Origin: a virus
Virus record (IMG/VR): IMGVR_UViG_3300037264_000146
Location: 1-39,282 of that record
Reading direction: 5' to 3' (one strand)
Length of the DNA stretch: 39,282 nt
Shown in pieces: positions 152 to 12,160 of this stretch. A model generated the notes under the pieces. That model saw only the letters and a list, made by a program, of their open reading frames with translations, had not been told where the DNA came from and did not search any database. The number at the start of each line of letters is the position of its first letter. Within the stretch, counting starts at the first letter, position 1. The position numbers and the translations under genes were made by a program.

Positions 152-192
152 AACAAAATGACTGATTGCTATTTCAATTATTTAGGAACAAA

Positions 193-1188
193 ATGGAAAT
201 AATCGAAAGAACTAACAAAATAAACTTCATAACAGATGCCACATTATTGACATCAATAATGAAATGTGGCAGATTCACTGATTTAAATATGAATAAATCA
301 TTACAATCAGTGAATGGTAAATCTAATTCATTAGAAGCTGGTAGTATTATACATAAATATTTGGAAGTATACTATAAATCTTCAACTACTGGAATTTCAA
401 AAGACCAAGCACATGGATTTGGTAAAACAGCAGCAGAATTGTACATACAAGGTTGTGCATTATGCACTAATTTCATACCATACCATACGCATACTAATTT
501 GGATGAACACTGTACCGAAGATTGCATACGCAAACCAAAGTGTGGTCATCAAATTAATGAATATCCTGGTGTAACTAATACCCCAGCAGAATCAGATGGA
601 TATATAATTGGATGGAAATATGTATTAGATACATGCGACCAGTATTTTGAACATTACAAATCAGATTTTTGGGTTACTCTGGAAACTGAGATTGTAAAAT
701 CTAAAATACTATACGAAGATGATGACATACGCATATTGTTTAAATCTAAACTAGACTGGATTGTGGATACAAATACTGGAATATATCCCTGCGACCATAA
801 AACCATGAAACAGAATAGAGACAGTGTAAGTCTCAATAATCAATTCATGGGTCAATGTTTAATTATGGATACACGGAATGTGTATATTAATAAGATAGGA
901 TTTCAAAAGACTCTAAAACCAGTTGATAAATTCAAACGCATTACTGTATCATATACAGCAGCTAGACTATACGAATGGCAATCTCAAATTCTACCATATT
1001 GGTGCAAAACAGCAGTAATGTATAATGAACAGGGTTATTATCCTCCTAACTTTAGTAACTGTGATGGTAAGTTTGGATTCTGTACATACAAGGAAGTATG
1101 TGAGTCTAATCCTGATATGCGTTCGGATGTGTTGAAGTTAAACTTTATTAAAACTGAGCAGTGGAATCCAACTAACGCGGATGAATAG
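193..1188 (+). CDS. PD-(D/E)XK nuclease, Cas4/RecB-like, probable Fe-S protein
   Basis: Probably a single-strand-directed DNA exonuclease acting in phage recombination or replication. With the start at ATG 193 (331 aa) a good AGGA site lies 5-6 nt upstream; a TTG at 166 in the same frame has no such support. The fold signature is visible: G-x-x-x-H at residues 50-54 (motif I), an E in VTLETE near 165, D188 in KLDWI, DHK at 201-203 (motif III, D-x-K) and Q217 in the helix after it. One cysteine near the N terminus (C25) and three near the C terminus (C290, C297, C303) match the four-cysteine [4Fe-4S] layout of Cas4 and AddB. A further cysteine-rich insertion (C88, C91, C107, C111, C117) could bind zinc. 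There are no cas1/cas2 genes, so this is a phage recombination nuclease rather than a CRISPR gene. It heads the early operon together with the Sak4-like ATPase. Confidence 0.85.
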   Translation: MEIIERTNKINFITDATLLTSIMKCGRFTDLNMNKSLQSVNGKSNSLEAGSIIHKYLEVYYKSSTTGISKDQAHGFGKTAAELYIQGCALCTNFIPYHTHTNLDEHCTEDCIRKPKCGHQINEYPGVTNTPAESDGYIIGWKYVLDTCDQYFEHYKSDFWVTLETEIVKSKILYEDDDIRILFKSKLDWIVDTNTGIYPCDHKTMKQNRDSVSLNNQFMGQCLIMDTRNVYINKIGFQKTLKPVDKFKRITVSYTAARLYEWQSQILPYWCKTAVMYNEQGYYPPNFSNCDGKFGFCTYKEVCESNPDMRSDVLKLNFIKTEQWNPTNADE

Positions 1189-1198
1189 AGGAAGATTA

Positions 1199-1399
1199 AT
1201 GGAATTATATGAAAATGGTAAATATATTGGAACTTTTCATAATATAGATGAAAATTATCAAGCATCTGTAATAGATACACATAATTTTATATGTAAACAT
1301 GTTAAAAAACATTTATGGGATTGGTCATGGAATAATTGGCAAGCACGTATAATATTAAATCATGCGTCTGAGCATATTTGGAATAGGTTATTTAAATGA
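1199..1399 (+). CDS. Hypothetical protein, 66 aa
   Basis: Small protein of unknown function. I take ATG 1199 because GAGGAAG lies just upstream; an ATG at 1181 in the same frame would overlap the nuclease gene by 8 nt and has a weaker site. The sequence starts MELYENGKYIGTF and is rich in aromatic residues and histidine, with several tryptophans (WDWSWNNW) in the second half. No signal peptide or membrane segment is seen. Its stop overlaps the next start (ATGA), so it is translated as part of the early operon. Confidence 0.65.
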   Translation: MELYENGKYIGTFHNIDENYQASVIDTHNFICKHVKKHLWDWSWNNWQARIILNHASEHIWNRLFK

Positions 1400-1578
1400 C
1401 AATAGTAATAACAACTAAAGAACCAAGAGCTGACTGGAATAATCTAAATGTAAAACGTGTTGTAAATCCAATAGAGTTTGAAATAAGTGAATATAGATTT
1501 TATGCTAATGGTCGTCATAATGATGATGTGTCTGAAATAAAAGCTGAAGATATAGTAAACATAGTTATTACATATTAA
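1396..1578 (+). CDS. Hypothetical protein, 60 aa
   Basis: Begins at an ATGA overlap with the preceding gene, which supports translational coupling. The protein is soluble, starts MTIVITTKEPRADW and alternates hydrophobic and polar residues as in small beta-sheet proteins (EFEISEYRFYANG). No recognised motif. Codon usage is A/T-ending like its neighbours. Function unknown. Confidence 0.65.
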   Translation: MTIVITTKEPRADWNNLNVKRVVNPIEFEISEYRFYANGRHNDDVSEIKAEDIVNIVITY

Positions 1579-1586
1579 ATATTAAA

Positions 1587-1883
1587 ATGACAAAAAAGAA
1601 AGTTAAATTACCAAATCACATTCACAAATTTAGGCGTGTGAATTTAACCCGTAATCCAGATAAAAAGGACTATATAGTCTTAAAATGTATGCAACCGGGA
1701 TGTGTTACATATATTCCAGTCGCATTAGGTGTAGGACAATTAGCTGAGTGTTGGATATGTGGTGACCCATTTGTAATTGATAAAAAAAGTGTAGGACACT
1801 CAAAACCTCATTGTATACATTGTATTAAACGTAAAGTTAAACCTATTGTGGAAAACCTTAGTGACTTAGTAAAGGATATATAA
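1587..1883 (+). CDS. Small zinc-binding protein with three cysteine pairs
   Basis: A 98-aa basic protein with six cysteines in three pairs: C34-x4-C39, C55-x2-C58 (CWICG) and C76-x2-C79 (CIHC), plus nearby histidines (H71, H75). This is enough for one or two zinc sites of treble-clef or ribbon type. The lysine-rich N terminus (MTKKKVKLP) suggests nucleic acid contact. It is followed by a second zinc-finger gene with a 1-nt TAATG overlap. I do not recognise the family; a DNA- or RNA-binding accessory role is inference from composition and context. Confidence 0.75.
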   Translation: MTKKKVKLPNHIHKFRRVNLTRNPDKKDYIVLKCMQPGCVTYIPVALGVGQLAECWICGDPFVIDKKSVGHSKPHCIHCIKRKVKPIVENLSDLVKDI

Positions 1884-2107
1884 TGAAACCAGAAAATGTT
1901 AAATGTCCTAAATGTAATGGACCTATGAGTTCACGTAAATCTAAATTTGGTGTATTCTGGGGTTATAATGATTATCCCAATTGTAAAGGAACCAGAGATT
2001 CTATGGGCTTAAGTAAGCAAGATAAAGAAGATAATCATCCTGATAGAGATTATGATGCGATAGATGATTTTCATCCGGGTAATCCCAGATTTTATGGAGA
2101 CAATTAA
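1883..2107 (+). CDS. Topoisomerase-type C4 zinc finger protein
   Basis: The first 37 residues match the C-terminal zinc finger repeat of bacterial topoisomerase I: CPKC at 8-11, a basic stretch (SSRKSKFG), then FWGY and YPNCKGTR with C34. The usual fourth cysteine (FWGC) is replaced by Y28, so the site has three cysteines here. The C-terminal half is acidic and low in hydrophobics (KEDNHPDRDYDAIDDFHPG) and is probably disordered. Known members bind single-stranded DNA; a role in replication or recombination is inferred from the early-operon position. The start overlaps the previous stop as TAATG. Confidence 0.75.
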   Translation: MKPENVKCPKCNGPMSSRKSKFGVFWGYNDYPNCKGTRDSMGLSKQDKEDNHPDRDYDAIDDFHPGNPRFYGDN

Positions 2108-2305
2108 ATGATAGCAATCATAACTGGATTATTTGGCATAATGATAGGTTATTTCTTCGGTCGTGCGAATACTATTAAATTATGCCGTCGTCTATATAAA
2201 ATGAATGTAGATATGGATATGATATTTATTGAATATGCCGAACGAGATATTATGTTTAATAAAAACATCAACGAATGTGAACATTCAATAAGAATGGTTA
2301 AATAA
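2108..2305 (+). CDS. Small membrane-anchored protein
   Basis: A 65-aa protein whose first 18 residues (MIAIITGLFGIMIGYFFG) form one transmembrane helix or uncleaved signal anchor, followed by a cytoplasm-type mixed-charge tail. The start directly follows the stop of the zinc-finger gene and the stop overlaps the next start. A second membrane protein follows immediately, so the two may act together at the inner membrane. Phage early membrane proteins are sometimes superinfection-exclusion or takeover factors, but nothing in the sequence proves that here. Confidence 0.7.
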   Translation: MIAIITGLFGIMIGYFFGRANTIKLCRRLYKMNVDMDMIFIEYAERDIMFNKNINECEHSIRMVK

Positions 2306-2517
2306 TGCCTATACAATGGGATGAACAAGTGGAATTAGATAAAGAAACAAGAAGACGTATGCGACAAAATGAAACTTTTAGTGATGGATTTTACATATAT
2401 TTATACTCGCCTAGTCGAGTCTTATTTATAGTTTTAATGATATTTATGTTAGGATTTATCGCTGGCAATATAGCACATGATGAATTATTCCACGCTATTG
2501 AACAGTCGGTAAGATAA
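2305..2517 (+). CDS. Small single-pass membrane protein
   Basis: A 70-aa protein with a charged N-terminal arm (residues 1-25, including ETRRRMR) and one strong hydrophobic segment at about 38-56 (VLFIVLMIFMLGFIAGN), then a short polar tail ending HDELFHAIEQSVR. The positive arm would stay in the cytoplasm. It starts at a TAATG overlap with the membrane protein before it. No recognised family. It lies among early genes and far from the lysis cassette, so a holin role is unlikely. Confidence 0.7.
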   Translation: MPIQWDEQVELDKETRRRMRQNETFSDGFYIYLYSPSRVLFIVLMIFMLGFIAGNIAHDELFHAIEQSVR

Positions 2518-2525
2518 TGGAGTAA

Positions 2526-2777
2526 ATGAAAGTGAACATCAAGGAAATCATCAGAAAAACAGTTAATTCTCATCAAGGTATCAAGTCTGTTGAATTAGTA
2601 TTAGAAGTTATGCAACAAGCCTCTGATATGAATATAACTATATATGAAGATGCCTTGATGGAATTAATTGAAGAAAGAGGAATTGTGGAAATTGAATATA
2701 CACTTCCACAAATGGATTATCGCGTGAAATCATTGTATCTTCCCAAAGATACAATTGTTGTAGTGTCGAAAGCATGA
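2526..2777 (+). CDS. Winged-helix-like phage protein
   Basis: An 83-aa protein with a predicted helix-rich first half (IKEIIRKTV, GIKSVELVLEVMQQ, YEDALMELIEERG) and a beta-hairpin second half (IVEIEYTLP, YRVKSLYLP), the order expected for a winged helix. Similar small proteins of the pattern 'ALxxLIxxGxIxEIEYxLP...KSxYLP' are, from memory, common beside phage recombination genes. The ribosome site is GGAG three bases before ATG, the same AATGGAGTAAATGAA sequence that precedes the next gene. DNA binding is inferred. Confidence 0.72.
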   Translation: MKVNIKEIIRKTVNSHQGIKSVELVLEVMQQASDMNITIYEDALMELIEERGIVEIEYTLPQMDYRVKSLYLPKDTIVVVSKA

Positions 2778-2821
2778 ATTAAAGAGTAAAGTTTTACAAA
2801 TGCTCTTAGAAAATGGAGTAA

Positions 2822-3676
2822 ATGAACCAAATGCCAAACATGAGTCAGAATAAATTTGATGCTCTCTATACGTTAATGAAGGGAGAATGGGGCACGCGCA
2901 AATCAACCTGTGCATTAAGCTATCCTGGCCCAATCTATTATTTTGATTGGGATAAAAAGATGAAAGCACTACATTTACCAATGCGTGCATGGGGTATTAA
3001 TGCTAGTAGTGTAGAATATGATAGTTATAATGATTGGAATACTCCACGTCAAAAATTAGAACAACTTCAAACTAACTGTAAATTTAAGACTATTGTAATT
3101 GATACAATTACTTCTGGAGCTGATTCAATAAACAGACAAACACTTAAAAATAAAGGAAAAGATGAGAAGGGTAAGCATATTGCAGGCATACCAGTAAATT
3201 CCATTGAAGATTTTAATGCAGAAGATTCCGCACTTAAAGAGTTAATTGCATTGACAAAGGATATTCATTTATACCATAAAGTTAATGTAATCTTAATTGC
3301 ACACGTTATTCAAAAGGAAGTTAAAGGCCCAAATAATACTACACATATGGCTAGACTATTAGTTACAGCCGGAAAGGGAATTGCCCAGAAAATTCCAGGT
3401 TATTGTGATGAAATTTATCACTTTAATGTAGAAACTGAGATGGATACATCTAAACCTCCAGTTTATACATTACGAACTACACATACAGGTGATGATTTTG
3501 CACGAACATCATTACCACTACCAAGTTTGATAGCATTTAAAGATGACCCATTATATCAAACATACATTAAGCCTGCTGTAGATAAGATGAATAATATGCA
3601 GCTTGAGGAACAAGCTCATAAAGTTTTAATATCTGACAAAATTCAAGCTCCAGTTACTATGGAGATAAAAAGCTGA
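2822..3676 (+). CDS. RecA-fold ATPase, Sak4-like recombination protein
   Basis: A 284-aa NTPase of the AAA_24/Sak4 type, which in phages promotes single-strand annealing with an SSB partner. The P-loop is GEWGTRKS at residues 21-28; the usual glycine before the lysine is R26, while K27 and S28 are kept. The beta-strand after it (IYYFDWD, 38-44) and the Walker B strand TIVIDT (90-95, D94) follow the family pattern. LNVILIAHV later is the strand that in RecA-like folds carries the polar sensor. Directly downstream is a probable ssDNA-binding protein, and a Cas4-like nuclease lies upstream, a typical phage recombination set. The start has GGAG three bases upstream; ATG at 2831 or 2840 cannot be excluded. 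Confidence 0.75.
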   Translation: MNQMPNMSQNKFDALYTLMKGEWGTRKSTCALSYPGPIYYFDWDKKMKALHLPMRAWGINASSVEYDSYNDWNTPRQKLEQLQTNCKFKTIVIDTITSGADSINRQTLKNKGKDEKGKHIAGIPVNSIEDFNAEDSALKELIALTKDIHLYHKVNVILIAHVIQKEVKGPNNTTHMARLLVTAGKGIAQKIPGYCDEIYHFNVETEMDTSKPPVYTLRTTHTGDDFARTSLPLPSLIAFKDDPLYQTYIKPAVDKMNNMQLEEQAHKVLISDKIQAPVTMEIKS

Positions 3677-3735
3677 ACTGTTAATAAAAACCGTAAACAA
3701 CGAACAAACAACAAACAAACGAAAGTGAGTATTAT

Positions 3736-4158
3736 ATGGGTGAATTAGACGGAACAGTATTTAGTCTCAGTAAGAAAGACGTAATGGGTGGAAAAGTGTA
3801 TCCACCTTCATGGTATCGTGTCCATATTGATGATGTTACCACGTCACCATCTAAAAATGTGGAAAAACCATCCACAAACATTACGTATAGTGGAACTATC
3901 CTGTTTGATGCAGATAGTGGAGATAAGGAATTTGCAGACCATCCTGCTACATGGCTGTTTAATTCCCGCGCACTTGGATTCACTAAAGGATTCTTAGTGT
4001 CATTAGGGGTTCCAGAAAGTGATATTACAGAAGATAAGCGGTTTGATTTTAAAGCTGCTATTGGAAAGGATATTGACATCTACATTGAGAATGATACATA
4101 TGAGGGTCGATTAGTTAATCGAATCAATCATAAGTATCGTGCAGTGCGTTCTGCTTAG
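3736..4158 (+). CDS. Probable ssDNA-binding protein (DUF669-like)
   Basis: A 140-aa protein with alternating beta strands (GTVFSLSK, WYRVHIDDV, NITYSGTILFDA), a helical part containing GFTKGFLVSLGVPESDI, and a closing section GKDIDIYIENDTYEGRLVNRIN. The pattern 'L..LG.....GK.v.v.v....Y.G...N.I' is what I know from the DUF669/SSB-like proteins that follow Sak4-type ATPases in phage genomes. Position immediately after the ATPase supports a partnership in annealing. It is preceded by an A/C-rich leader (3690-3720) and followed by the gene-free 4159-4534 stretch. SSB function is inference. Confidence 0.65.
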   Translation: MGELDGTVFSLSKKDVMGGKVYPPSWYRVHIDDVTTSPSKNVEKPSTNITYSGTILFDADSGDKEFADHPATWLFNSRALGFTKGFLVSLGVPESDITEDKRFDFKAAIGKDIDIYIENDTYEGRLVNRINHKYRAVRSA

Positions 4159-4164
4159 TATTTA

Positions 4165-4500
4165 AACAACTTTGGGACTCAATGGCTAAACCTATATGTC
4201 GGAGAGTAGCTGTGGAATATGCTGCATCATGAACAGCAGAGAGTGTTCAGAAACAAATGTATGGATAAAGTGGCCCATACCCCAAAGACATTTTAATGAT
4301 GAATAATCTACAATATATGTGGAAAAATTACTATAATTTCAGCATCTTAGTCCGGGGGGATATAATTGAGATGCAACTATTAATCCGGTGTGTTGCCGTA
4401 ATATAGTGAAATTATTCTCGCCACATGTGGCCGTAAACATATATTAGTAGATGCCCCCTCTATCTAGGTTAAAACCATAACCATATGATAGAGGGGGCCG
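4165..4500 (+). ncRNA. Candidate structured RNA in a 376-nt gene-free stretch
   Basis: The stretch 4159-4534 has no credible gene but holds at least three blocks of inverted repeats. Block 1: CTTTGGG (4170-4176) pairs with CCCAAAG (4281-4287), with ATGG (4182-4185)/CCAT (4275-4278) nested inside and an inner hairpin TGCTG/CAGCA (4220-4224/4234-4238). Block 2: ATAATTTC (4333-4340) pairs with GAAATTAT (4408-4415), enclosing GCATCT/AGATGC (4342-4347/4369-4374) and CGG/CCG (4386-4388/4396-4398), which makes a three-way junction. Then comes a 12-base palindrome (4420-4431) and a 12-bp stem (4453-4464/4487-4498). Strand is assigned from the flanking genes. Expression and function are unknown; no known RNA family is recognised. 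Confidence 0.45.
4453..4498 (+). terminator. 12-bp GC-rich hairpin, possible terminator or RNA 3' end
   Basis: GCCCCCTCTATC pairs perfectly with GATAGAGGGGGC across a 22-base loop that itself can form GGTT/AACC. It is the most stable hairpin in the early region. There is no T run after it (the next bases are CGTTAATC), so a classical intrinsic terminator is doubtful; it may instead cap the 3' end of the structured RNA or block exonucleases. The cold-shock-like gene starts 37 nt further on. Confidence 0.35.
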
Positions 4501-4534
4501 TTAATCTAAATTATTTAATAAGTGGAGTGAATTA

Positions 4535-4870
4535 ATGGGTATTTTTGAACAGATGCGTAAGTTAACTAAAGGCGAATCTATTGAATCTAATGATAATCAA
4601 AACGATAAAGCAGAAGTCGGAGATTTGATACAGGGAATTATTACAAATATTATTCATACAACCGATGAAAAAAAGGGTGGATATGGATTCATAGCATCTC
4701 CAGCATTACCATATGAACGTGTCTTCTTTCATTGGTCAGGATTAAGACAAGATACATTAAGATTTCCTGAATTGAAAAAGAAAATGCGTGTGGAGTTCAT
4801 ATTACAGTTTAGTGAACGTAGTGAACAATATGAAGGTGGATATAGGGCTGTTAAGATTAAAGTTCTATAA
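4535..4870 (+). CDS. Cold-shock-domain-like nucleic acid binding protein
   Basis: A 111-aa protein. Residues about 30-111 follow the cold-shock OB fold: GIITNII strand, RNP1-like GYGFI (49-53), RNP2-like RVFFHW (62-67) followed by SGL, then MRVEFILQF and a closing strand YRAVKIKVL. The first 28 residues are polar and look disordered. Cold-shock proteins bind single-stranded RNA or DNA and melt secondary structure. GGAG lies 9 nt upstream of ATG. It sits directly behind the structured non-coding stretch, which suggests, without proof, that it could bind that RNA. A second cold-shock-like gene is at 9518. Confidence 0.75.
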   Translation: MGIFEQMRKLTKGESIESNDNQNDKAEVGDLIQGIITNIIHTTDEKKGGYGFIASPALPYERVFFHWSGLRQDTLRFPELKKKMRVEFILQFSERSEQYEGGYRAVKIKVL

Positions 4871-4877
4871 AGTTAAT

Positions 4878-5156
4878 ATGACCCCAAAAGTATTAACATT
4901 TAAAGAGAAATATAATGAGCCTAATCTAACGTGGCAGCAAAAAGCTATCTTAATAGCATTATATCATACAGTTATGCATGAAAGATATTCAACGTGGACA
5001 TTACGTGACACTGCTATACATTTTGAAGTTAGTATAGGATTAGTAAGTGAAAATATTAAATTAGCTAAATATATAGATAATCTTAAATACGGAAAAAAAT
5101 TAATGAAATTAGATACTCGTGAAAAAGGATTGAAATATATTTATGGAAACTGGTAA
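4878..5156 (+). CDS. Helix-turn-helix protein, 92 aa
   Basis: Starts at ATG 4878, just after the stop of the cold-shock-like gene; an upstream in-frame ATG at 4788 lies inside that gene and is rejected. Helices are predicted across most of the length. The segment WTLRDTAIHFEVSIGLVSEN (40-59) has the spacing of a helix-turn-helix, with G54 in the turn region and LVSENI as the recognition helix. It may be a small regulator or a replication accessory protein; it lies just before the DNA polymerase gene. Family not recognised. Confidence 0.65.
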   Translation: MTPKVLTFKEKYNEPNLTWQQKAILIALYHTVMHERYSTWTLRDTAIHFEVSIGLVSENIKLAKYIDNLKYGKKLMKLDTREKGLKYIYGNW

Positions 5157-5179
5157 AATAGTACCGTAAGAAAATAAAT

Positions 5180-7669
5180 ATGAAATATATACCTGGATAT
5201 GGACCTTTGGGTCCAAAAATAATGATTATTGGTGCATCCCCATCTATTAAGGATGATGCATGTGGAAAACCATTTAGTGATTCAAGAGAATTAGATGAAT
5301 TACTACGTGATGCAGGTATTAGTAAAGCTAATACATGGTTAACTACTGTATCTAAATATTATGTTCCACCTAATATACGTGGCAAACGCATTCCTTTCTC
5401 TATTAGATGTAAAAATGCGGGAATAGATATAGCTCAACAAATAGATGAATTACAGAAAGAGATTAATGCCGTTCAACCTAATGTAATTCTAGGAATTGGT
5501 TTACCAGTATTATGGGCATTAACTGGTAAAACTTCTATTGAATCATATCGTGGCTCAATATTACAGGGTGCGGGGCGTAAATTAGTATGCACATATAACC
5601 CCTCTGGTTTATCATGGCAATCTGTAGAAACACCAGAATTCATGGGTTATTGGAATAAAGTTGTAATTCTATTTGATATTAAACGCGCCAAACAAGAATC
5701 AGATTATCCGGAAATTGAATTACCTAAGAGAATGTTACAGGTATGTAAATCTAGCTATGAATTAAGTGAGTTTAGACATAAATATAAATTACACAGAGCA
5801 GCGGGTGTAGATATCGAAGCTGGTGGACATTATTTACCGGTATGCATAGGATTCGCATTCACACCTAATCATGGTATGTCAGTTCCATTATGGAATAAAG
5901 ATGGAATATCTAATATCCCAGATTCTGATTTAACACAAATATGGTTACAATTATCTGAAATGCTTTGGCAGATTGAAGTAATAGGTCAGAATTTTAATTA
6001 TGATAGAGATAAAATACAAAGACTGGGTTTCATTATTCGTCACTTAAAAAGTGACATAATGATGAAAGCTCTAGCATTAGACCCTGAAATACCTAAATCT
6101 TTAGCATTTAATACAAGTATTAGAACAAGAGAACCATATTATAAAGATGAGGGAATGTATAAAGGGTCATATAATGATTTATTTATTGGAAATGCCAGAG
6201 ATGCTTGTGTTACTAAAGAAATTGATGAAGTTACAGAGGACGAGCTTAAATTTATAGGTCAAGATAAATACTATTATAATTTTCTAATGAAACTACCCGA
6301 ATTCTATTTAAGAATTGAACAGCAAGGATTCAGATTAGATAAAGTTAGAACTGAAGTCCTATTGCATAAATATATCAAATGGTCTGAAAGTATCAAATAT
6401 AAACTGTTTAAATTAACAGGTATACATCTTAATTACAATAGTCCTAAACAAGTAGCAGAGTTATTATTTGGTGCATATGGTTATGCAGACCGTGGTGGTG
6501 CAGGTGAAGAAGAACTTACAGCTTTATTAAATTTAACTGGTAAAAATGGAGTAAAGAATTCAGAACATAAACAAACTATCGAACTAATTATGGAAGGTCG
6601 TAGAGTTGAGAGAACTATTAGTAATGAAATTATGATTATGCCTGATTTTGACGGGCGCGTCCGAACTACATATTTTCCCTGTTTAGAAACTGGGCGTTCA
6701 AAAACTGGACAACAAGAACCCCCTATTAGACCAACTATTGAATTAAGAGATTTACAGAATAAAAAGAAGAATAAGTGTTTAGGTAGACCATTTCAGGTAA
6801 TGACAAAACATGGAGATATTGGAGAAGATGTTCGTTCACAGTATATTCCCGACGAATCAGATGACCCAGATGACCCGTACGTATTTGTACAAGCAGATAG
6901 TAGTCAGGCAGAAGCTAGAGTTATATTTAGATTAGCTAATGATGAACAAGCATTAGAGGATGTAGATACACATGATTACCATGCTCTTACTGCTTCTTGG
7001 TTTTTCGGGGGTACTGAATCTGATTATTCTAAGAAGGTGTTGGGTTATGAGCATCCAATTAGATTTGCAGGAAAAACTCTTAGACACGCTGGACATTTGG
7101 GAGCTGGGAAAAAGAGAGCAGCGATATCAGTTAATACCGACGCCAGAAAATTTAAAGTTAATATTACAATTACAGAAACTACGGCGGAACAAGCACTCCT
7201 TATATTCCACAGAAAACAACCAAATATAAAAGGTGTATTTCAACACGATATAATTAAACAATTAGAAAGAGATAGGACATTATATGCCCCGATACCTTAT
7301 GGCTTTGACGCACCGTTTGGTGGTAGACGTAGATTCTACGAACGATGGGGAGATGAATTATTTAGGCAGGCTTTCTCATACATACCTCAACGAAGTATCA
7401 GTGATAATACAAAAGGGGCTGGAATCAGAATTAAAGAACGAATTTCCAGAATTAAAATTGTCTGTGAAAGCCATGACGCCCTCTTATTTTGTATCAAAAC
7501 TTCAAAATTAAAAGAATGGGTTCCAATAATTAAACAAGAAATGGAAAGACCCATTGATTTTAGAACGTGTAATTTATCTAGACCAACATTAATAATACCT
7601 TGTGAAATCGAGATTGGTAATAACTATCAGGAATTTAGTAAATTTAAAGATTTTGTTGATGAATTATGA
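5180..7669 (+). CDS. DNA polymerase family A with N-terminal UDG-like domain
   Basis: Replicative polymerase, 829 aa. Residues about 1-165 look like a family 4 uracil-DNA glycosylase fold: GASPS at 18-22 with D26 and GKPF at 29-32, PNVILGIG at 100-107, and YNPS at 139-142 where active enzymes have HPS. Residues about 205-370 form a 3'-5' exonuclease: D211/E213 (VDIE), N271-D275 (NFNYD) and D341 (NARDA). The palm follows: RTTYFPCLETGR (495-506), motif A DSSQAEAR (573-580), motif B R628-x3-K632...H636...L640, motif C HDA (765-767). The O-helix tyrosine equivalent to E. coli Y766 appears to be L640. UDG-PolA fusions are, to my recollection, known in SPO1-like phages. The stop overlaps the next start (ATGA). 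Confidence 0.92.
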   Translation: MKYIPGYGPLGPKIMIIGASPSIKDDACGKPFSDSRELDELLRDAGISKANTWLTTVSKYYVPPNIRGKRIPFSIRCKNAGIDIAQQIDELQKEINAVQPNVILGIGLPVLWALTGKTSIESYRGSILQGAGRKLVCTYNPSGLSWQSVETPEFMGYWNKVVILFDIKRAKQESDYPEIELPKRMLQVCKSSYELSEFRHKYKLHRAAGVDIEAGGHYLPVCIGFAFTPNHGMSVPLWNKDGISNIPDSDLTQIWLQLSEMLWQIEVIGQNFNYDRDKIQRLGFIIRHLKSDIMMKALALDPEIPKSLAFNTSIRTREPYYKDEGMYKGSYNDLFIGNARDACVTKEIDEVTEDELKFIGQDKYYYNFLMKLPEFYLRIEQQGFRLDKVRTEVLLHKYIKWSESIKYKLFKLTGIHLNYNSPKQVAELLFGAYGYADRGGAGEEELTALLNLTGKNGVKNSEHKQTIELIMEGRRVERTISNEIMIMPDFDGRVRTTYFPCLETGRSKTGQQEPPIRPTIELRDLQNKKKNKCLGRPFQVMTKHGDIGEDVRSQYIPDESDDPDDPYVFVQADSSQAEARVIFRLANDEQALEDVDTHDYHALTASWFFGGTESDYSKKVLGYEHPIRFAGKTLRHAGHLGAGKKRAAISVNTDARKFKVNITITETTAEQALLIFHRKQPNIKGVFQHDIIKQLERDRTLYAPIPYGFDAPFGGRRRFYERWGDELFRQAFSYIPQRSISDNTKGAGIRIKERISRIKIVCESHDALLFCIKTSKLKEWVPIIKQEMERPIDFRTCNLSRPTLIIPCEIEIGNNYQEFSKFKDFVDEL

Positions 7670-7992
7670 TAAATGACTTCTGGCAAATCAAAAATGAAGG
7701 CGATAGAGAATTATACGTTAAAATTCGTAATTTAATAGATGATTGGTTTGAAGAAGCAATTAAAGCCCATAAAACTAAGGACCATAAAGCTCATGAATGT
7801 TTTAATAAAGAAATGGATATTAATACTAAAAAACTAAATTCTGTATTAAAAATTAAATCTACAGTTCAACAAATTGTTATATTAGATGAATTAATTGAAG
7901 ATATCGCAGATAATTTAGTTATAGCAATTCAAGAAGCTCTAATAGTATTTGAAGCAATTGAAAAATTAGAAGAATTAAGGCCTAAATCATGA
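7666..7992 (+). CDS. Hypothetical helical protein, 108 aa
   Basis: Begins at an ATGA overlap with the polymerase gene. The sequence is nearly all helix, charged, with many lysines and glutamates (DWFEEAIKAHKTKDHKAHECF, IVFEAIEKLEELRP) and heptad-like hydrophobic spacing, so a helical bundle or short coiled coil is likely. No catalytic motif. Tight coupling to the polymerase gene suggests a replication accessory role, which is inference only. Confidence 0.7.
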   Translation: MINDFWQIKNEGDRELYVKIRNLIDDWFEEAIKAHKTKDHKAHECFNKEMDINTKKLNSVLKIKSTVQQIVILDELIEDIADNLVIAIQEALIVFEAIEKLEELRPKS

Positions 7993-8171
7993 CTTTAATT
8001 AATAAAGATAGAACGTGGAAAACTATAATCTGTTTAAATCCAACCCATAGTACTGTTCAATTTGAAACAAATGAAATAGGTGGAATTAAATGTCCAATAT
8101 GTGAAGCTTTAATGATAACTATTGTTAAATCTGTTGTAATTATTGAAAATATTGTAAAATCTGAATCTTAA
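7989..8171 (+). CDS. Small zinc-ribbon protein, 60 aa
   Basis: Starts at an ATGA overlap with the gene before it. Candidate metal ligands are C15, H20, C35 and C38 (CLNPTH ... CPIC), the layout of a small zinc ribbon with two beta-hairpins. The C-terminal part is hydrophobic and beta-like (ITIVKSVVIIENIV). It is one of several tiny zinc proteins encoded by this phage. Function unknown. Confidence 0.7.
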   Translation: MTLINKDRTWKTIICLNPTHSTVQFETNEIGGIKCPICEALMITIVKSVVIIENIVKSES

Positions 8172-8204
8172 TTAATTTAAGACATAAGAATCCGTCGTAT
8201 TAAA

Positions 8205-9488
8205 ATGTCATGGGTTGATGAAGTCGTTGAAGTGCATAAAGAGTTTGAATCTCCTCTGAGCTTTTGGAAATGGAGTGCTTTAGCTGCAATTTCCGCAGTA
8301 TTAAAAGATAACGTATGGATGGATAGATATTTATACAAACTCTATCCTAATATTTATGTAATGTTCCATGCAGAATCAGGTTTAAAGAAAGGGCCACCTG
8401 TTAATTTCGCAGAAAAACTAGTCAAAGAAGTTAATAATACATCAATTATTAAAGGACGCAGTTCAATACAAGCTATTCTAAAAAATATGGGAACAGGTCA
8501 ATCATATCCCGGTGGAAGTATTAAAGCAGATTCTAATGTATTTATATGTAGTAGTGAACTATCGTCAAGTATAGTGGAAGACCCCGTAGCAGCTAAAATA
8601 TTAACCGATTTATATGATAGACATTATAATGAAGGAGAATGGAAATCTTTATTAAAACAAGAAGTATTCAGCCTAAAATCGCCTACTATAACTATGTTGG
8701 GAGCAACCAATGAAGCAATGTCAGAGGATTTTTTTACGAAGGCGGTTATTCAGGGAGGATATTTTGCACGTACATTTATTATTTACGAATCTAAACGAAA
8801 TAAACGTAACTCATTAACTGTAGCTCCATTAATTAAACCAGATGCTAAATTATTAGCAGTTTATTTAAAAGAAATAGCTAAACTCAAAGGAGAATTCCGT
8901 TCGCTTACATCGACACGCCAAGATGAATATTTTAATATTCTAAAAATAAAAAATGGTAGAGATATCTATTTTAGCGAAGCGGGATTAATATATGATAATT
9001 GGTATGATGTATTCCTCGATTTAGTTGATGCACAAGATATTAAAGATGAGACAGGTACTTTAAATAGATTTGGCGATTCAGTATTAAAAGTTGCTATGTT
9101 ATTAAGTTTAAGTGAACATTGTAAACTTGAAATAACAGCATCAGCTATGACTGAAGCTATAAGAATATGTGAGCAATTACTTGGAAATGTGCGTAAGACT
9201 ACAATGGGACGTTCAGGTTTATCGACTGCTTCGCACTTAAAGGGGTTAATCATAAATGAATTATTAATAGTAAGAGAGAATCATGCAATAACTAGAGCTA
9301 TGCTAAGTAAGAAATTTTATATGCATTATTCCGGAACTGAAGAATTAGACCAAATTATGCAGGCTTTTCATGCAAGTGGTATGATATTAACACAGAATCA
9401 AGGTGATACAGTAATCTATAAGATGCCGGATACACAGGTTATTCAACTTAAAGAATATTTAGCAGGAAAAGGAAATAAGAAACCATAA
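8205..9488 (+). CDS. DUF3987-like ATPase, probable replicative helicase/primase-associated
   Basis: A 427-aa P-loop type protein resembling the DUF3987/YfjI family, which occurs in phages as the C-terminal helicase part of primase-helicases or alone. Visible points: helical N terminus ending SPLSFWKWSALAAISAVL (16-33), a degenerate P-loop HAESGLKKGPPV (55-66), Walker B-like VFICSSEL with E118, a sensor-1-like GATNE (166-170), and an arginine finger candidate in GGYFARTFII (R189). A C-terminal winged-helix region (about 345-410) has MLSKKFYMHYSG. No primase catalytic domain is present, so the phage either uses a host primase or one not recognised here. It lies in the polymerase operon. Confidence 0.75.
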   Translation: MSWVDEVVEVHKEFESPLSFWKWSALAAISAVLKDNVWMDRYLYKLYPNIYVMFHAESGLKKGPPVNFAEKLVKEVNNTSIIKGRSSIQAILKNMGTGQSYPGGSIKADSNVFICSSELSSSIVEDPVAAKILTDLYDRHYNEGEWKSLLKQEVFSLKSPTITMLGATNEAMSEDFFTKAVIQGGYFARTFIIYESKRNKRNSLTVAPLIKPDAKLLAVYLKEIAKLKGEFRSLTSTRQDEYFNILKIKNGRDIYFSEAGLIYDNWYDVFLDLVDAQDIKDETGTLNRFGDSVLKVAMLLSLSEHCKLEITASAMTEAIRICEQLLGNVRKTTMGRSGLSTASHLKGLIINELLIVRENHAITRAMLSKKFYMHYSGTEELDQIMQAFHASGMILTQNQGDTVIYKMPDTQVIQLKEYLAGKGNKKP

Positions 9489-9517
9489 CATTAGACGAAA
9501 GAAGGGAAGAAATACTA

Positions 9518-9757
9518 ATGAAAGGTCACATACGAAATCTACCCCCAAATAAACCATTCGCATTTATTCGTTCAATAACAAATATGGATAACATCTTCTT
9601 GCACAGAAATGATTATTATGGAGATTGGACTCAGATGATTAAGCAGTTTGAAGTTGGTAAGATATATGTAGAGTTTGAATTAACAGAAGGTGCTAAAGGT
9701 CCACGAGCGAGTAAGTGCGCCCGAATTACTGAAACTGAATTTAATTTGAAGGATTAA
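9518..9757 (+). CDS. Second cold-shock-domain-like protein
   Basis: A compact 79-aa OB-fold protein: KGHIRNL strand, FAFI at 14-17 in place of GFGFI, NIFLHR at 25-30 as the RNP2-like strand, VGKIYVEFEL and a last strand KGPRASKCARI. This covers the whole cold-shock domain with no extra arm. A strong site (GGGAAGA) lies 7 nt before the ATG. The overall identity to the other cold-shock-like protein (4535-4870) looks low, so they are not a recent duplication. Single-stranded nucleic acid binding is expected. Confidence 0.75.
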   Translation: MKGHIRNLPPNKPFAFIRSITNMDNIFLHRNDYYGDWTQMIKQFEVGKIYVEFELTEGAKGPRASKCARITETEFNLKD

Positions 9758-9758
9758 T

Positions 9759-9962
9759 ATGGATATAGAATTAATAACTTTATTTAAATTCACATATATT
9801 CCATTTGAAAAGGGTTCAATTCGGTTTGTAGATGTATTTATTACAGCTAAAGACAGAAAAGAAGCAGAATTAATTGCACTAGAAAAGAATTATGAATTTT
9901 TTGACCAAAGCTGCACAGTTAATGTAGCTGAAGTTTTACAAGGATTTAGGGAAATAAAATGA
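9759..9962 (+). CDS. Hypothetical protein, 67 aa
   Basis: Small soluble protein in a tightly packed set; its stop overlaps the start of the DHH phosphoesterase (ATGA). The sequence shows beta strands (ELITLFKFTYIPF, IRFVDVFITAKD) followed by an amphipathic helix (RKEAELIALEKNYEFF) and a short tail. This beta-beta-alpha pattern resembles small DNA-mimic or regulatory folds but I do not recognise a family. Confidence 0.65.
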   Translation: MDIELITLFKFTYIPFEKGSIRFVDVFITAKDRKEAELIALEKNYEFFDQSCTVNVAEVLQGFREIK

Positions 9963-10930
9963 ATAAGACAATAGTAATTTATCATGGTGGATGTAGAGAT
10001 GGATTTTGTGCGGCTTGGGTTTATAATAAGTATTATAATTCACAAATAAATGAAGTTATTAAAAAACAGCCAGATAATGATAAAGGTAAATTTGGTTATT
10101 TTAATGGAGTAGAATATCACCCCGGCTTCTATGGCCAAGAACCTCCTGATGTTAAAGATAAAAATGTAATAATATTAGATTTTTGTTATCCTCTTGAAGT
10201 GATGAAACAAATAATTAAAAATTCTAATAGTGTGCATTGGATTGACCATCACAAAACTGCACAGCCATTTGTTGATTACCTTCGTAAATGTTCTGAACCA
10301 AATAATGATATAGGTGTAGAAGGTGCATTACAATTTAGTTTTGATAATAATCGTTCAGGCGCAGGTCTAACATGGGACTACTTTTTCCCATCTCAACCAA
10401 GACCTTGGATTGTTGATTATGTAGAAGATAGAGATTTGTGGGCTAAGAAATTACCATCATCTGATATAATCAATGCTTATATTTCAGTTTTAGAATTTGA
10501 TTTTAAAGTGTGGGATTTAATTGAAGAACATATGACTGTAGATACTGCTGAGAAAAATGGTATTATTGCTATTGCAAAGACAGAACAGTATGTTCGAGAG
10601 GTTTGTAAGAATGTTTATTTTGTTGATATTTTAAAATTTGAAAAATTAAGTGATAAATTTGGTGATGTTAAAGAACATTCGTGGTCTAAAATCCCAACAG
10701 TAAACATCTGCCAAGTGGATTGTTCTGAAGTATTAGCTCATCTACTTAAACTTTATCCACTATCTGCATTCTCTCTATATTGGTTTAAAAGAGCTGATGG
10801 TATGTATCAGTATGGATTACGTTCTATTGGCGATTTTGATGTATCTACTGTTGCTAAATTGTTTGGGGGTGGTGGACATAGGAATGCTGCTGGATTTCAG
10901 TTGAATTATTTATTGGAGGAGTTAAAATGA
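9959..10930 (+). CDS. DHH/DHHA1 phosphoesterase (NrnA-like)
   Basis: A 323-aa Mn-dependent phosphodiesterase of the DHH superfamily. Motif I is HGGCRDG (H9, D14), motif II is D74 in IILDFCYP, motif III is the DHH triad at 96-98 (IDHHKT), and motif IV is EDRD near 156-159 (YVEDRDLW). The DHHA1 substrate domain ends in GGGGHRNAAG at 303-312, the usual nucleotide-binding loop. Family members degrade short oligonucleotides (nanoRNA), pApA-type linear dinucleotides or cyclic dinucleotides. Here it could recycle nucleotides from degraded DNA/RNA or remove signalling nucleotides used in host defence; the latter is speculation. It overlaps neighbours on both sides by ATGA. Confidence 0.88.
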   Translation: MNKTIVIYHGGCRDGFCAAWVYNKYYNSQINEVIKKQPDNDKGKFGYFNGVEYHPGFYGQEPPDVKDKNVIILDFCYPLEVMKQIIKNSNSVHWIDHHKTAQPFVDYLRKCSEPNNDIGVEGALQFSFDNNRSGAGLTWDYFFPSQPRPWIVDYVEDRDLWAKKLPSSDIINAYISVLEFDFKVWDLIEEHMTVDTAEKNGIIAIAKTEQYVREVCKNVYFVDILKFEKLSDKFGDVKEHSWSKIPTVNICQVDCSEVLAHLLKLYPLSAFSLYWFKRADGMYQYGLRSIGDFDVSTVAKLFGGGGHRNAAGFQLNYLLEELK

Positions 10931-11148
10931 TGCAAGTAGTTCCAAGATATCAAGTTTATTGGGAATTAGATTGTGATAAACCAAATACAGGAGCTGTAAT
11001 TATTAATGCTAATAACATAAATGAAGCATTAAAATGGTTTAATAATCTCAATTTTGGATTAAGAAATATAACTCTCCTACAAATTAAACTAATAAATGAA
11101 AATCTTAAACAAGAAGGTTCTTTTCAGGAGAATATTAAAGAAAAATAA
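10927..11148 (+). CDS. Hypothetical protein, 73 aa
   Basis: Begins at an ATGA overlap with the phosphoesterase gene and has a strong GGAG site 6 nt upstream. The protein has two beta segments (YQVYWELD, GAVIINA) and a helix (INEALKWFNN), then a charged tail (KQEGSFQENIKEK). No known motif. It is the last gene before the tRNA. Confidence 0.65.
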   Translation: MMQVVPRYQVYWELDCDKPNTGAVIINANNINEALKWFNNLNFGLRNITLLQIKLINENLKQEGSFQENIKEK

Positions 11149-11156
11149 CATAGAAA

Positions 11157-11245
11157 CCGACGGTGGTGGAATTGGTATACACATGAGACTTAAAATCTCA
11201 CGACCTTTAAAAGTCATGCGCGTTCGATTCGCGCCCGTCGGACCA
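11157..11245 (+). tRNA. tRNA-Leu (anticodon UAA), CCA encoded
   Basis: A complete class II tRNA. Acceptor stem CCGACGG/CCGTCGG (11157-11163/11235-11241), D stem GTG/CAC, anticodon stem TGAGA/TCTCA (11184-11188/11196-11200) with loop CTTAAAA, so the anticodon is TAA at 11191-11193. The long variable arm pairs GAC/GTC, and the T arm GCGCG/CGCGC closes a TTCGATT loop. Discriminator A is followed by an encoded CCA. It reads UUA, which is a very frequent leucine codon in this A+T-rich genome, so it likely supplements the host pool during late expression. It lies between early genes in the same direction. Confidence 0.97.
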
Positions 11246-11271
11246 ATTTTGTGAGAAATGTGGGTAAATAA

Positions 11272-11454
11272 ATGATGACTAAAATTTGGCCAAAAGGTAA
11301 AACTAAAGGTGAAGATGCACTAGAATATCCAGATTGCTGGCCCCATATTGCATCAAGTCAAGATAAAACTATTATGATAAAGTCCTCTAAGGGGACTTTG
11401 GAAGCTGTATATACTATGTCCGCAATAGCGAGAATGGAGTTTAGGCCATCATGA
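11272..11454 (+). CDS. Hypothetical protein, 60 aa
   Basis: Small gene just after the tRNA, starting at ATG 11272 (a second ATG follows at 11275). The product starts MMTKIWPKGKTKGED and contains a short beta-rich stretch (KTIMIKSSKGTLEAVYTM). Its stop overlaps the next start by 4 nt. No recognised domain; codon use fits its neighbours. Confidence 0.6.
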   Translation: MMTKIWPKGKTKGEDALEYPDCWPHIASSQDKTIMIKSSKGTLEAVYTMSAIARMEFRPS

Positions 11455-11825
11455 ATAAATTAATAGTTTATCAAAGTGAAAATAGTACATTGGAAGTATC
11501 AGACGGATATCATACAATGACAGAATTATATGAACACCGCTATGCACTATTTTGTGCTTTAGTTAAAGTATATGATGGATATAAAACTCCACTCGGATGT
11601 AATGTGACATGTTATAAATCTAAATTACATCCTGATGGTACATCATTTTATGGATGGTTTATTGTCATGATGATTATACATAAATTAGATACAACAATAG
11701 AACAGATAAGTTACCACTTACCGATAGAATGGTGGGATAAATTTAATATTATGGCATTAAATAGAATGTTTGAATGGGATGGTCATACGTCATCAGACGT
11801 AATTGAGAGATTGTTAAAATTATGA
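11451..11825 (+). CDS. Conserved phage protein with C-terminal WDGHTSxDV motif
   Basis: A 124-aa protein with the sequence pattern SDGYHTMTELYEHRYALF near the N terminus, GTSFYGWFIVMM, ISYHLPIEWWD, and WDGHTSSDVIERLLKL at the C terminus. From memory this combination is shared by many phage hypothetical proteins, usually close to nucleotide-metabolism or recombination genes, but no function is established to my knowledge. The several H, D, W and Y residues in conserved positions suggest a binding or enzymatic site. It overlaps both neighbours by 4 nt. Confidence 0.75.
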   Translation: MNKLIVYQSENSTLEVSDGYHTMTELYEHRYALFCALVKVYDGYKTPLGCNVTCYKSKLHPDGTSFYGWFIVMMIIHKLDTTIEQISYHLPIEWWDKFNIMALNRMFEWDGHTSSDVIERLLKL

Positions 11826-12160
11826 AATATTATTTATGTGGTCCAATAGATACTACTGGTAAAAAAGAAGATAATATTTATAATATGGAATTGGCAACTC
11901 AATTTCTACGTAATGTTTCACGATTAAATATTATTAATCCAATCGAAGAAAATTCTACTCATTCAGATTGGGCATATACAGATTATTTACGGGCAGATAT
12001 TAAAAATATGATGGAATGTGGAGCTATCATACTATTAAAAGGATGGTGCCAATCTAGGGGTGCTAGAAATGAACTTAAAATAGCTTTAGAATTAGATATG
12101 CCAGTATTCTATTTTGATATAGAGACTGATAATAAATTAGTTGATATGAATTTTTATTGA
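11822..12160 (+). CDS. DUF4406 nucleoside deoxyribosyltransferase-like protein
   Basis: A 112-aa Rossmann-like protein. It shows YLCGPID at the N terminus (G7-P8, as in the nucleoside 2-deoxyribosyltransferase family), W50, DYLRADI (55-60) and the diagnostic IILLKGWCQSRGARNELKIA (69-88), where LKGW, S78, G80-A81 and E84 correspond to the DUF4406 motif 'LxGWexSxGAxxE'. E84 is the likely catalytic or nucleoside-binding glutamate. Related enzymes exchange or hydrolyse bases on deoxynucleosides, so a role in nucleotide salvage or modification is plausible. It is the last plus-strand gene before the convergent junction. Confidence 0.8.
   Translation: MKYYLCGPIDTTGKKEDNIYNMELATQFLRNVSRLNIINPIEENSTHSDWAYTDYLRADIKNMMECGAIILLKGWCQSRGARNELKIALELDMPVFYFDIETDNKLVDMNFY

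Follow-up and report, generated by a model that had tools for sequence, protein, structure and literature searches.

A conserved structured RNA of two modules between the ssb-like and cold-shock-domain genes of an uncultivated phage group

The window studied here is a virus record of 39,282 bases, analysed whole. Judging from gene content, its + strand genes (166 to 12160) are probably the early ones and its - strand genes the late ones, and the transcript considered below would likewise be early. Phages usually pack their genes end to end, and in the early block only two gaps exceed 60 nt. One of them, 11149-11271, holds a tRNA-Leu gene of the early operon with anticodon TAA (window 11157-11245). 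The other, 4159-4534, is the sole long gap of the early operon without a tRNA. It lies between an ssb-like gene that ends at 4158 (3736-4158, + strand, 140 aa; phrog_378 'single strand DNA binding protein', E = 1.8e-4, a weak match) and csd, the gene of a cold-shock-domain protein, that starts at 4535 (4535-4870, + strand; PF00313, 27.8 bits for a cut-off of 27). The ssb-like protein shows 38-52% identity across 18 relatives, in which its gene is syntenic. Further downstream, a DNA polymerase I-type gene with an N-terminal uracil-DNA-glycosylase domain is found at 5180-7669 on the + strand (PF00476, PF03167, phrog_17). A small protein encoded at 9518-9757 resembles a second cold-shock-type domain when read by eye (KGHIRNLPPNKPFAFIRSI). 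A preliminary description of this DNA had claimed a gene-free stretch in the early operon; its limits are exact, the gap measures exactly 376 nt, and no open frame of useful length is present in it. Hidden coding is ruled out by stops, which break all three forward frames.

Folded as RNA, the whole gap reaches -106.8 kcal/mol, and its dinucleotide shuffles reach -83.3; the z value is -4.1, and not one shuffle in 100 did as well. In four equally long coding segments of the operon, z lay between -1.0 and -2.5. The stems that had been listed in advance as denser than chance (a 7-bp stem closing a 118-nt domain, an 8-bp stem, a palindrome and a 12-bp GC-rich stem) are all there, and the z value of the region bears out that judgement; the largest helix, the 15-bp helix A described below, was absent from that list. 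We divide the gap into two modules, D1 (4166-4290) directly behind ssb and D2 (4305-4498) ahead of csd. The z value is -6.0 for D2 and -6.1 for its helix B, and only -1.3 for D1 alone, so that for D1 the comparative evidence is decisive. In searches of Rfam 15 with the window and its relatives, only tRNAs were found at or above the gathering score, and the best sub-threshold matches of D1 and D2 were at chance level, in agreement with the earlier statement that no known RNA class is recognised. Our results support a conserved structured RNA, a new family without Rfam match. The proposal of a novel structured RNA is upheld in this sense, but the gap holds two modules with separate histories and not one RNA.

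Relatives were collected by IMG/VR searches with the polymerase, whose UDG-PolA gene served as anchor, with Sak4 and with alignments. We obtained about 120 loci, some contigs being included twice; 80 of the 304 stretches matched by sak4 were taken in. They represent a single group of uncultivated phages whose genes are arranged as exo - sak4 - ssb - gap - csd - polymerase. Between ssb and csd, most relatives have two structures separated by a small, very acidic ORF, the first structure lying directly behind ssb. No close relative exists among the roughly 50,000 phage genomes deposited. Cultured phages showed no sequence similarity to the gap region, to the D1 of locus L119 or to the neighbouring Sak4 protein, and their polymerases are about 26-30% identical at best; the Sak4 alignment, searched against the GTDB genome collection, gave no bacterial match. 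The window SSB alone as query retrieved no relatives, and the SSB alignment is too diverged for scanning. Within the group the sequence similarity of the gap is nearly gone, and plain blastn of the gap region against the first relatives gave nothing useful, which makes the gap a good test of structure.

D2 (+ strand) consists of two helices, A then B, that are 0-2 nt apart. Helix B (4453-4498, + strand) is a 12-bp stem formed by GCCCCCTCTATC (4453-4464) and GATAGAGGGGGC (4487-4498), with an inner stem GGTTA/TAACC. In the relatives it has the form GTGAYA-GGGG...CCCC-G, a 12-bp stem and an inner hairpin, with the conserved unpaired letters CAAYAC/TTACG. The covariance model R1 gave 61 matches in 90 loci (802 kb), every one on the + strand and one per locus, and at most one match per whole contig in 18 records. 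Compensatory changes were observed in 14 of the 15 pairs. The covariation value is 0.770 versus 0.292 when shuffled and at most 0.213 in slid controls, and 199 doubly changed cells were counted against 46.6 in the shuffles. Counts from alignment A7, which was fitted to the model, lean towards it, whereas those from alignments A3 (helix B) and A4 (D1) do not. The helix B of the window is too diverged to be recovered by R1; we assign it to D2 by its place, its architecture and the match with locus L042 given below.

Past helix B, the relatives carry an invariant G followed by pyrimidines and a T run. A run of at least three T is present in 82% of loci versus 7% at random places, and the resulting U-tract is offset from the stem by about 2-3 nt. 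In the window we read GTTAATC at this point, with no U-tract, and unlike most relatives the window has no linker either.

Helix A (4306-4452, + strand) pairs ATCTACAATATATGT (4306-4320) with ACATATATTAGTAGAT (4437-4452) over 15 bp. Inside it the fold predicts an 8-bp helix ATAATTTC/GAAATTAT (4333-4340/4408-4415), further helices at 4342-4349/4367-4374, 4376-4380/4403-4407 and 4386-4389/4395-4398, and a hairpin at the palindrome GCCACATGTGGC (4420-4431), all on the + strand; L042 carries GCCTTGGTTGGC at the position of this palindrome. None of 100 shuffles of the window pairs as well. In 37 loci out of 45, the window being one of the 37, a helix A that stops at the linker preceding helix B outperforms 95% or more of the shuffles, all of them mononucleotide shuffles. 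Just ahead of helix B, the window and L042 match at the same place over 45 nt with 78% identity; the E-value (0.019) is modest, and it is the co-linearity that is the convincing part. A pattern scan of IMG/VR for D2 returned 8 contigs, all of this family and all at this place.

In the window, csd starts 36 nt past helix B. The distance from helix B to the next start codon has a median of 28 nt in the relatives (called in 44 of 51 loci), the next ORF being usually csd, and in 49 of 51 loci the acidic ORF ends 9-117 nt upstream of helix B. Such a spacing, with flanking genes for an SSB-like and a cold-shock-domain protein and with inner loops of helix B that are conserved in alignment A3, would suit a candidate site at which one of these two proteins represses the translation of its own or the neighbouring gene. 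There is a precedent in phage T4, where gp32 represses its own mRNA at a site ahead of gene 32. In L042 and L045, however, D2 precedes another small ORF and not csd, and we hold a protein site of this kind to be quite unlikely.

D1 (4166-4290, + strand) is supported by the covariance model R2 and by compensatory changes. Its helix P1 joins CTTTGGG (4170-4176) to CCCAAAG (4281-4287); these 7 bp close the 118-nt domain (4170-4287), and 6 of the 7 pairs show changes on both sides. P2 (4178-4204; 4178-4186 with 4198-4204) bears the loop CTAAACCTATAT, kept as CTAAACCTATAAC in relatives, and both-side changes in 8 of 8 pairs. P3 (4213-4249) would be made of TGGA/TTCA (4213-4216/4246-4249) and TGCTG/CAGCA (4220-4224/4234-4238), according to a reading of the alignments by eye, uncounted; the region holds the conserved GAGAGTG (4239-4245), and its shape is different in the minimum-energy structure obtained when the window is folded by itself. 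P4 (4259-4280), GTATGG/CCATAC with the loop ATAAAGTGGC, is the best-conserved part, its loop having the form ATAAANNNGY. P1 to P4 all lie on the + strand. The motifs common to the window and its relatives are CTAAACCTATAAC in the P2 loop, GAGAGTG, GAAATNAA and ATAAANNNGY in the P4 loop. Letters resembling a hammerhead ribozyme in D1 fail across the relatives when read by eye.

In a ten-sequence alignment that includes the window, 18 of the 22 D1 pairs show compensatory changes. In this alignment (A4), from which the structure itself was derived, 95.3% of cells are paired versus 72.2% when shuffled and 31-45% in slid controls, and 51 cells are doubly changed versus 13.8 in the shuffles. The model R2, built from 12 relatives with the window left out, matches D1 of the window at 57.6 bits (E = 7.8e-13, a rough value, as are all E-values of our home-made models R1 and R2), and nothing else credible was detected across the 39 kb. 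A scan of IMG/VR with a DNA pattern of the D1 core, blind to proteins, found 19 contigs. In 18 the match sits in the ssb-csd interval of this group; the last, L129, lacks these genes altogether. The compensatory changes that the preliminary description had proposed to look for in related phages are thus present, in D1 as well as in helix B of D2. The alignments describe D1 as a compact four-helix RNA with conserved loops. In L123 (2475-2636) and L127 (3704-3867), P3 is extended by a separately folded insert of about 40 nt.

G-U cells outnumber A-C cells by 59 to 2 in helix B, which marks it as a sense-strand RNA, and by 22 to 4 in D1. Inverted repeats placed between ssb and polymerase, in a replication gene cluster, could be thought to act at the level of DNA, for instance as a replication origin or a cruciform. 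This is highly improbable, since the G-U excess points to selection on the + strand RNA and not on a strand-symmetric DNA cruciform. An RNA primer for an origin would be compatible with the same excess. Among the roles proposed at the outset, namely regulatory RNA, origin or primer RNA and host-takeover RNA, the placement speaks for the first, acting in cis within the operon transcript, rather than for the latter two.

Behind ssb, most relatives have a D/E-rich ORF that is small, about 45-90 aa, and has a start of its own (for instance L003:759-1028 and L008:2472-2708); it has no Pfam match. The window has no acidic ORF in the gap and no D/E-rich early protein, so that D1 and D2 adjoin; as the ORF is present in most relatives, it was probably lost from the window rather than never present. 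The SSBs of this group end without the usual acidic tail, and the acidic ORF may therefore be a detached SSB tail or a DNA mimic. Recoding of ssb into this ORF through a structure was considered and dropped, the ORFs having their own start and a Shine-Dalgarno-like sequence.

D1 itself occurs in a minority of relatives only, and many others have a long hairpin there instead. In L005, L007, L080, L087, L095, L102, L100, L004 and L028, which lack D1, this hairpin occupies the first 80-120 nt behind ssb, and its loop can pair 6-21 nt past the stem (GACCTA/TAGGTC, GACCTTA/TAAGGTC, GACTTTG/CAAAGTC, GGGCCAT/ATGGCCC), the pairing being mostly followed by CA. It has the look of a pseudoknot with covariation and would be a second type of RNA at this place; only 7 cases individually passed the 5% control. 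A third type, in L024, L051, L052 and L116, is a long conserved stretch GTTGTGTGAATGCTTTG.GGGTTGCGGTAAACACGTAAAAT.ACGGAACCC without Rfam match. In L046 (5585-5667) and L061 (3226-3310), tRNA genes lie directly behind D1 and before the downstream genes, and in L014 a tRNA gene was read by eye near 4100, between ssb and the downstream genes.

The tRNA genes of L046 and L061 indicate that stable RNAs are probably made from this interval. Together with the conserved unpaired loops of D1, they would fit a trans-acting small RNA, D1 and/or D2 being freed by cutting of the operon transcript and directed to a host or phage target. We regard this as unlikely: in the relatives found, both modules are tied to the place between ssb and csd, the distance from D2 to the downstream start is fixed, and in many relatives other structures replace D1. 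The interchange of hairpin types behind ssb, and the long helices that flank the gene boundary, could also mean hairpins for RNase processing or stabilisation only, which would set the ends and half-lives of two mRNA segments. Processing or stabilisation by itself leaves the conserved unpaired letters and the U-tract unexplained, and we judge it very unlikely.

The reading that we prefer, held with about as much doubt as confidence, is that the gap is a cis-acting, two-module RNA of the polycistronic early transcript that uncouples ssb output from the replication genes. D1 would form the 3' end of the ssb segment and, directly behind ssb, would cap, protect or isolate this upstream segment. 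D2 would be the leader of the csd-polymerase segment, with helix B as a terminator-type hairpin and with helix A and the conserved inner loops of helix B as the control part. Most likely, transcription would be attenuated at helix B in a partial or regulated way, leading to more ssb than polymerase. A median of 28 nt between helix B and the next start leaves little room for a separate promoter, so any termination there should be incomplete or under regulation. An offset of the U-tract from the stem weakens an intrinsic terminator; the offset of about 3 nt in the relatives, and GTTAATC in place of a U-tract in the window, thus count against attenuation. In the window attenuation may be weak or lost and, its U-tract being lost, D2 may keep only a pausing, processing or stabilising role here. 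The absence of D1 from most relatives also counts against this reading. In addition, the conserved unpaired letters of the D1 P2 and P4 loops and of helix B suggest a binding partner, so that simple attenuation or protection would leave these conserved loops unexplained.

To our knowledge, few phage-borne cis RNA elements have been described. Here, a whole uncultivated lineage keeps an RNA locus between its ssb and polymerase genes, and the structures at this locus are kept by compensatory change or swapped for others. If the attenuator reading is true, the dose of SSB versus replisome would be set by RNA alone. There is a small chance that D1 represents a new RNA class, either catalytic or sensing a ligand or protein, and D2 a new RNA-encoded antiterminator/terminator pair; the D1 class would then be restricted to the border of ssb in a single large lineage of uncultivated phages, and the D2 pair would set the SSB-to-replisome ratio.

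Several known systems share single features with this locus. The L17 downstream element, a bacterial 3'-UTR RNA motif (PMC2864571), shares with it only the placement directly behind a gene, but the gene is another one and the motif is bacterial. The STAXI motif (PMC2864571) is made of tandem pseudoknots that lie close to DNA-handling genes, ssb among them. It is a tandem repeat, whereas D1 and D2 are single and without Rfam match, and only the placement near ssb is common; some relatives of the window phage may nevertheless have a pseudoknot behind ssb. As with T4 gp32, an SSB gene is bordered by structured RNA, but D1 sits behind ssb instead. With the cspA-type thermosensor, a 5'-UTR that refolds with temperature, D2 shares only its placement ahead of a cold-shock-domain gene.

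D2 resembles an intrinsic terminator or attenuator by the GC-rich 12-bp stem of helix B and the U-tract of most relatives. Unlike an intrinsic terminator, helix B has a conserved internal loop, a conserved GTGAYA linker and an adjoining helix A and occurs once per genome, inside an operon; its U-tract is offset and is missing from the window. Put-type antitermination works by way of the zinc-binding domain of RNA polymerase beta'. The put RNA of HK022 is a lambdoid antiterminator RNA whose two stem-loops act on the elongating polymerase (PMC9378689). Like put, D2 has two adjacent stem-loops on a phage transcript that is probably early, and a cis action on transcription is proposed for it. The put element is about 73 nt long, has a left and a right version (putL and putR) and occurs in two copies per genome near early promoters, whereas D2 is a single copy of about 100-200 nt, with a U-tract in most relatives and no more than one R1 match per contig. 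Because of this single copy and this U-tract we do not claim put membership for D2; HK022 putRNA can nevertheless be seen as the nearest system in style.
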